A stretch of DNA of 64,000 bases, from NCBI RefSeq assembly GCF_001889405.1, contig NZ_CP017921.1, positions 1,316,057-1,380,056 on the forward strand. The letters are read 5' to 3'. Below, piece by piece: positions 52,332-53,938 of the stretch; the stretch's first letter is position 1; each line of letters starts with the position of its first letter. The notes beneath the pieces are model-generated. The model was not told the DNA's origin and ran no database searches. It saw only the letters and a program-made list of their open reading frames with translations. Origin of the DNA: Methanohalophilus halophilus (GTDB taxonomy: Archaea > Halobacteriota > Methanosarcinia > Methanosarcinales > Methanosarcinaceae). The position numbers were made by a program, and so were the translations under genes.

Positions 52332-52644
52332 TGATTGGACGTCTATTCATAATTCCATTTTTGCTCTATATAATGGAGCCAAAAAATTTATAGTTTTCTA
52401 TTTCCCTGCAATCTCCAATAAGAAAGGCGCAGAATATAAATTTGCCAGTTATATCACGTCAGTATTTCAGAAAAGTATGATAGTAGATTGCATTGGATAT
52501 ATGGTTGTAAATTCTACAAAGTTGAACTTTCGTGCTGTCCTTTTTGAATGATTATATGTAATAGATAATAAGTATTTTATACTACGAATAACCTTATATT
52601 TGTATTTATATTTAATATCTGGCGTGGTCAGGAGCACACTATAA

Positions 52645-53271
52645 ATGGAAGGAATGGCGGCAGAAAAATGGTTTCAGCTTGGTTTTCATGCCGAATATCC
52701 TGAAGACAAGATTCGTTGCTACTCACGCGTTCTCGAAGTGGAAAAAGATTCTCTTATCTGGGATAACGAAGCGATTGCTCTTGTATGGACAAATAAAGGT
52801 ATAGCTCACAGTGATCTGACAGAATACCAGGAAGCTATTCGTTGTTTTGATAATGCTCTTGAACTTAATGGGAATAATCCCGATATCTGGTACAATAGAG
52901 GCATAGTTTATTCCTAGTTGAAATAGCCAGAAAAAGCGATTGAATGTTTTGACAGATCCATCGGGATTGATCCAGATTATGATAATGCATGGCTGAATAA
53001 AGGCATGATGTTCTGTAGTATGGAAAAATATGAAGAGGCCCTTATGTGTTATGAACATATAAATGTCAGGGAAACTGATTCTTCTGAAAAGAGAACCATT
53101 TTGTGGAACTGTCGGGGGATATCACATTTCTTAAAAGGAGCATATGATGAAGCGACACGATGTTTTTCTCATGTATTAAATCTTGATCCGGAGTGTGAAG
53201 AAGCAAAAAATTACCTGAAAAAAGCAATATCCCTCCTTAATCAGCAAAAAAAACAAACATCCAATTACTAA
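52645..53271 (+). CDS. TPR-repeat protein crossed by two in-frame amber codons
   Basis: The frame from ATG 52645 to TAA 53269-53271 is open for 208 codons except for TAG at 52915 and 52924 (codons 91 and 94). Four tetratricopeptide-like units run through it: VWTNKGIAHSDLTEYQEAIR, IWYNRGIVYS with the ambers then PEKAIECFDRSIGIDP, AWLNKGMMFCSMEKYEEAL and WNCRGISHFLKGAYDEATRC. The ambers replace the Glu and Lys of the usual helix turn S-E-L-G-K-Y-E without any gain or loss of bases. The organism group has TAG-decoding pyrrolysine machinery, so this may be a pyrrolysine protein; otherwise it is a recent pseudogene. The TATA element TATTTATAT is at 52603-52611; GGAG lies 11 bases before the ATG. 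Confidence 0.6.
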
Positions 53272-53350: not shown

Positions 53351-53938
53351 ATGGAAATACTGGGTAATTTAAAAAACTCTATACGTCATTCTGTATTGCC
53401 ATTTGCATCCAGGATCCCCCTTTCTCCCGACACCATCACATACCTTGGGCTTTTTGTAAGTTTTCTGGCAGCTTTTGAATTCGCAAAAGGCGATCTTTTA
53501 TACGGTGCCCTTTTTTTAATTCTTGGAGGGGTACTTGATGTTTTAGATGGGGCCGTTGCACGTGTAAGTGGTACAACATCGGCTTTTGGGGGGGTACTTG
53601 ATTCGGTATGTGATCGTTATGCAGATGCTATTGTTTTTGCAGGCTTGATTTATGGTTTTATAAACAACACAATCCAAGGGAGCGGATTTTTTATAGAAGG
53701 GTGGATTTGGTGTATGTTTGCAATGATCGGTTCATATCTTGTCAGTTACACACGTGCACGTGCCGAAGCGGCAGGTGCATCCAAACTTGATATAGGGGTG
53801 GCAGAAAGATCAGAAAGAATTATAATTCTGATCATCGGCGCCCTTTCAGGTTTCCTCCTGCAGGCACTTGCACTTATTGCAATCCTGACCCATATTACTT
53901 TTATACAGCGGGTAATGGGGGCAAAACAGCGTCTATAG
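53351..53938 (+). CDS. CDP-alcohol phosphatidyltransferase, archaeal lipid type
   Basis: 195 aa with about five to six helices. The family signature D-x2-D-G-x2-A-R-x8-G-x3-D-x3-D is complete in DVLDGAVARVSGTTSAFGGV followed by LDSVCDRYAD. It joins a polar head group (for example inositol phosphate, serine or glycerol phosphate) to CDP-archaeol. The long SYTRARAEAAG segment resembles archaetidylinositol phosphate synthase, but the head group is not certain. A TATA box lies at 53294-53302. It stops with TAG, one of the few here. Confidence 0.88.
   Translation: MEILGNLKNSIRHSVLPFASRIPLSPDTITYLGLFVSFLAAFEFAKGDLLYGALFLILGGVLDVLDGAVARVSGTTSAFGGVLDSVCDRYADAIVFAGLIYGFINNTIQGSGFFIEGWIWCMFAMIGSYLVSYTRARAEAAGASKLDIGVAERSERIIILIIGALSGFLLQALALIAILTHITFIQRVMGAKQRL

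Follow-up and report, generated by a model that had tools for sequence, protein, structure and literature searches.

The TPR gene of Methanohalophilus halophilus contains two in-frame TAG codons three residues apart, and its most plausible reading, which we hold with a probability of about 0.85, is that the gene encodes a working TPR adaptor into which two pyrrolysines (Pyl) are inserted under a near-complete TAG=Pyl code, the two residues being probably tolerated. The window, the whole 64,000-nucleotide stretch that was analysed, comes from a genome of 2,022,959 bases in a single contig, where it spans positions 1316057-1380056. The features discussed here, in window positions, are as follows.

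52585..52644, forward strand: A/T-rich stretch resembling a TATA box, with a GGAG motif like a ribosome site, both conserved in sister species; function putative
52645..53271, forward strand: gene of the TPR protein, ending in TAA and 208 codons long when TAG is taken as Pyl (translation with TAG as O, Pfam TPR_1, syntenic orthologues)
52915..52917, forward strand: first in-frame TAG, residue 91, predicted C-terminal end of TPR helix A (alignment, structure model)
52924..52926, forward strand: second in-frame TAG, residue 94, predicted turn preceding helix B (alignment, structure model)
52927..53268, forward strand: coding region after the ambers, residues 95-208, under purifying selection (dN/dS, third-position excess)
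53351..53938, forward strand: archaetidylinositol-phosphate-synthase-like (AIPS) gene, with TAG at 53936 at the ancestral stop position (orthologue ends)

The preliminary description had claimed a 208-codon frame interrupted by TAG at 52915 and 52924, and the coordinates obtained here agree with it. As it had also stated, neither TAA nor TGA occurs in the 114 codons after the second TAG, and the frame remains open up to the TAA at 53269. With TAG read as a residue, a Pfam profile search matched TPR_1 at 1.7e-37 (126 bits against a curated cut-off of 27.8) over four stretches, the best of which, residues 79-112, spans both ambers and bears out the proposal that the TPR periodicity continues across them. 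The Pfam matches are to TPR and other repeat families, and a methyltransferase domain is absent from the product. The 60 bases upstream of the gene are near-identical in five loci (the window locus and four sisters, compared in register).

A search of 112 genomes of the family yielded 52 orthologues, 34 of which were aligned for amber columns, and one or two in-frame TAG codons were found in the gene of all eight Methanohalophilus genomes. Six close genomes, among them the window genome, share the two TAGs at identical codons; in the five sister species the frame is uninterrupted and the protein shares 91-94% amino-acid identity with the window protein. Two deep-branching Methanohalophilus genomes (G002 and G006; 50-51% identity) have sense codons at the residue 91 and 94 sites; in the alignment, both have TAG at column 54, and G002 has another at column 30. 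A Methanococcoides-like genome (G069) has a TAG of its own at column 26; its sisters show GAG in that column. The amber columns thus total five (26, 30, 54, 94 and 97), and the probability that all five would be TAG is about 0.001-0.009 under random nonsense mutations. In the matched part of the 52 orthologues, there was no internal TAA or TGA, and no internal amber beyond Methanohalophilus and G069. An alignment of orthologues had been suggested beforehand as a check; within the genus it finds TAG kept in six species, and not sense codons throughout. Since every sequenced Methanohalophilus species has TAG in this gene, the gene should be regarded as alive, and it offers a test case for Pyl outside the methylamine enzymes.

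Columns 94 and 97 are TAG in 6 of the 34 aligned orthologues and are sense and ungapped in the other 28. The first amber site is elsewhere Tyr, Asn, Glu, Gln or Lys, and the second Asn, Tyr, Asp, Glu, Arg, Gln or Lys. The earlier suggestion that the ambers replace Glu and Lys therefore holds only in that both residues occur at either site; they do not do so consistently, and the sites are variable and polar. Both Methanohalophilus clades, the Methanococcoides-like genomes and G019 have the gene order TPR-AIPS-purS-purQ in common, and this synteny backs the orthology of the TPR genes across clades. As part of the main reading, the gene would be functional and vertically inherited in Methanosarcinaceae, with a putative function as an adaptor or scaffold.

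Purifying selection extends past the ambers. In a comparison of the six close species, the codons ahead of the first TAG gave a dN/dS of 0.032 and those behind the second a value of 0.182 (computed on codons 95-204). Substitutions in the latter part fall mostly on third codon positions (96, 58 and 246 at the first, second and third positions, respectively), and a third-position excess is found on both sides of the ambers. The six-species comparison places the combination of intact frame, shared TAGs and post-amber substitution pattern beyond chance. Retention of TAG in the six species does not amount to proof of selection for Pyl and is weak evidence that Pyl is needed, since of the 110 downstream residues 83 are unchanged as well, and the faster evolution of the C-terminal part (0.18 versus 0.03) could also come from partial truncation. 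Codons 89-99, an 11-codon stretch around the ambers, are without any nucleotide change in the six species; this stretch was dropped as a signal, as there is a longer such run at the start of the gene.

The neighboring AIPS-like gene serves as an internal control. In all six close Methanohalophilus species it reaches a TAG at the ancestral stop, exactly where most orthologues end, including those outside the core clade. The frame behind this TAG shows no purifying selection (dN 0.185, dS 0.131), and the tail differs in length and sequence across the six species. It opens with a common KRLYN(T/K)SFMSR and then diverges. This TAG may be a true stop or may lead into a Pyl-bearing C-terminal tail. 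The AIPS gene shows that some TAGs precede unconstrained sequence.

The machinery for reading TAG is present in the window genome. An intact pyl cluster lies about 0.95 Mb from the TPR gene and consists of pylT followed by PylS, PylB, PylC and PylD; the tRNA-Pyl has the anticodon CTA (CUA), and the four proteins each exceed the curated cut-offs in profile searches. The preliminary description had made its pyrrolysine proposal depend on pylTSBCD, and the complete cluster was found. Pyl has been detected by MS/MS in MttB of Methanohalophilus portucalensis (PMC4928046), so that decoding in the genus is a reported fact, from which we infer decoding in the TPR gene. One review (PMC8211752) lists Methanohalophilus as being without the Pyl system, which is contradicted by the cluster found here and by the MS/MS result (PMC4928046).

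TAG usage was surveyed in sampled stretches of four Methanohalophilus genomes (380 kb of the window genome, 400 kb of G007, 400 kb of G006 and 129 kb of G002). In the window genome, TAG terminates 3 of the 350 ORFs of at least 120 amino acids, and two of the three, MtmB and an acyl-CoA synthetase, are plainly read through. Across the four samples, the share of ORFs that end in TAG is 0.9-2.2% at a minimum length of 120 amino acids and 1-2% at one of 150, many of these TAGs being sense codons. Two apparent TAG ends remain in the window genome, one in the AIPS gene and one in a TAG-TAA tandem behind a TOPRIM-like gene; the frame with the tandem (G000:C1:1116689-1117219) is among the very few apparent TAG ends in the 780 kb sampled. 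Of 89 ORFs in a Methanolobus-like sample, five end in TAG, and in four of these another stop follows 0-20 codons on. The data indicate that TAG is near-absent as a terminator in Methanohalophilus and is probably close to a pure sense codon, so that standard gene calling would truncate such proteins or label them as pseudogenes. The release factor aRF1 of all eight Methanohalophilus genomes (L151, L147, L149, L150, L152, L153, L159 and L162) reads SQASNIKS, and other aligned Methanosarcinaceae have GQASNIKS; this Gly-to-Ser change, which adjoins the stop-decoding motif, may have to do with weak termination at TAG.

The simplest mechanism would be that Pyl-tRNA decodes TAG in the ordinary way, with TAG termination being rare in the genus. 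The tRNA-Pyl charged by PylS would decode both TAGs and the ribosome would go straight through, and the product that we infer is a TPR superhelix of 208 residues in which positions 91 and 94 are pyrrolysine. Since TAG is hardly a terminator in the genus, a mutation to TAG would act like a missense rather than a nonsense change. A confident structure model with Lys in place of Pyl (mean pLDDT 93.8) is an all-helical TPR superhelix, in which residue 91 is the last of helix 79-91 and residue 94 belongs to the turn 92-94, ahead of helix 95-108. From the model and the alignment, the two sites, one closing helix A and one in the turn that precedes helix B of a single repeat, are variable and polar and would most likely accommodate a bulky lysine derivative. 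The nearest solved structures are consensus TPR arrays, with the TPR domains of MamA and O-GlcNAc transferase behind them. The consensus TPR superhelices, MamA and YrrB (PDB 8chy, 3vtx and 2q7f) are alike in fold, but Pyl is no part of them, and the likeness is one of fold. A PYLIS-like RNA element was sought at the TPR gene, with no Rfam match above chance and a fold z-score of 0.57, which fits Pyl insertion needing none, as PYLIS is optional and not required (PMC9499178).

Two readings would deny read-through altogether. The preliminary description had left open a fresh pseudogene, a gene killed by two nonsense mutations, and two stops within four codons would indeed break the frame in standard annotation. 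However, both TAGs are common to six species, the frame beyond them is intact at a dN/dS of 0.18, none of the 52 orthologues has a TAA or TGA in the matched part and the upstream region is conserved. We reject this reading as most improbable, and the same evidence, together with the pyl genes and the TAGs elsewhere in the deep branches, supports the pyrrolysine alternative that had been set beside it. Nearly as improbable is a split into two genes, one for a protein of 90 residues and two repeats that stops at TAG, the other for a C-terminal protein starting from the ATG at 53005. Standard ORF calling does yield exactly such 90- and 88-residue ORFs; this layout was weighed against the orthologues outside the genus, which are single uninterrupted proteins, and against the model, in which a stop at residue 90 leaves helix A unpaired. 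The segment between the ambers and the ATG at 53005 (helix 95-108) is moreover kept as protein, and the two-gene reading was rejected.

The remaining readings accept that both TAGs are decoded as Pyl and differ from the tolerated-residue reading in the reason for which the ambers have been kept. One or both pyrrolysines might, through their electrophilic imine, bind an amine or a partner on the TPR surface, for which two Pyl three residues apart, kept in six species inside the change-free codons, could be taken as a sign. We consider such a chemical role unlikely, given that the sites differ between the two clades, that the orthologues have ordinary polar residues there and that the invariant stretch is not exceptional. 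A less remote possibility, although still a tentative one, is a Pyl-dependent switch, in which selection would keep at least one TAG in the gene while the sites turn over between lineages. The position of the residue would matter little, the ambers would be kept wherever they fall, and the full-length adaptor would depend on charged tRNA-Pyl and so report pyrrolysine (methylamine-growth) status. Consistent with this are the TAGs in eight of eight genomes of the genus at positions differing between the two clades, the further independent gain in the Methanococcoides-like genome, and the contrast with the two other non-methyltransferase ambers tested (FMN reductase and acyl-CoA synthetase), each of which is found in one of the eight Methanohalophilus genomes, the window genome alone. 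By a hand estimate from small counts that assumes equal tolerance, about 0.1 genes per genome would be expected by chance to have ambers in both clades. The recurrence of ambers across clades is suggestive. However, these rates come from small samples, tolerance differs by gene, and the TPR gene diverges fast (50% identity between clades). The Methanolobus-like orthologues have no internal amber in the matched part, and the neighborhood (gpgS, AIPS, purS, purQ and rnhB) is unlinked to methylamine genes. As the estimate rests on small counts, tolerance is kept as the main reading and the switch as its main rival. If the switch were true, the genus would have a pyrrolysine (methylamine-status) sensor that arises from codon choice and not from residue chemistry.

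Pyl outside the methylamine methyltransferases has so far mostly been viewed as a single-gene accident. TAG in every species of a genus, at clade-specific positions, offers a way to separate "tolerated" from "needed". Archaea that read all TAG as Pyl were reportedly described in 2025, a genome-wide claim with proteomics. In that code, as here, TAG is nearly absent as a stop and lies inside many genes; the present case differs in being one gene family with recurrent ambers, described from sequence. In MtmB, MtbB and MttB, TAG is decoded by the same PylS and tRNA-Pyl, but those enzymes have a single position-fixed catalytic Pyl, whereas the TPR ambers vary between clades and lie at variable positions. 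A review limits the Pyl proteins known apart from methyltransferases to transposases and Thg1 (PMC8211752), and a prediction study that includes M. mahii adds a TetR regulator, with the TPR gene unmentioned in its main text (PMC3639795). Methanosarcina Thg1 (tRNA-His guanylyltransferase), the transposases and the TetR regulator are likewise non-methyltransferase genes of Methanosarcinaceae with in-frame TAG, and for some of them a neutral gain of TAG was proposed (PMC8211752; PMC3639795). In contrast to these, the TPR gene has two ambers, is affected in all species of the genus and has ambers at other positions in the sister clade. It would thus be a further Pyl protein, one whose pattern of evolution is unusual. 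The novelty anticipated for it stands, within the main text and review just cited, for two Pyl in one non-methyltransferase protein; Pyl proteins other than methyltransferases were as such already known.

Other genes of the window genome also have in-frame TAG. Copies of methylamine methyltransferases with TAG are present, and TAG was found within otherwise intact FMN reductase, AMP-binding enzyme, PEP synthase, histidine kinase, aminotransferase, SLOG-family and URO-D proteins. Apart from the TPR gene, mtmB is the only convincing amber gene common to the syntenic samples of the window genome and G007. Many other TAG-bearing frames were antisense or upstream-of-start artefacts, conserved at the DNA level without a coding pattern, and were left uncounted. 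An ATPase-like protein gene with TAG at codon 453 (L202:7104-8897, forward strand; G000:C1:1027104-1028897) was seen in none of the other genomes of the genus. The acyl-CoA synthetase-like gene (L054:4415-6031, reverse strand; G000:C1:1524415-1526031) has TAG at codon 372, where G007 has CAG, and its orthologue in G005 has an internal TAA.
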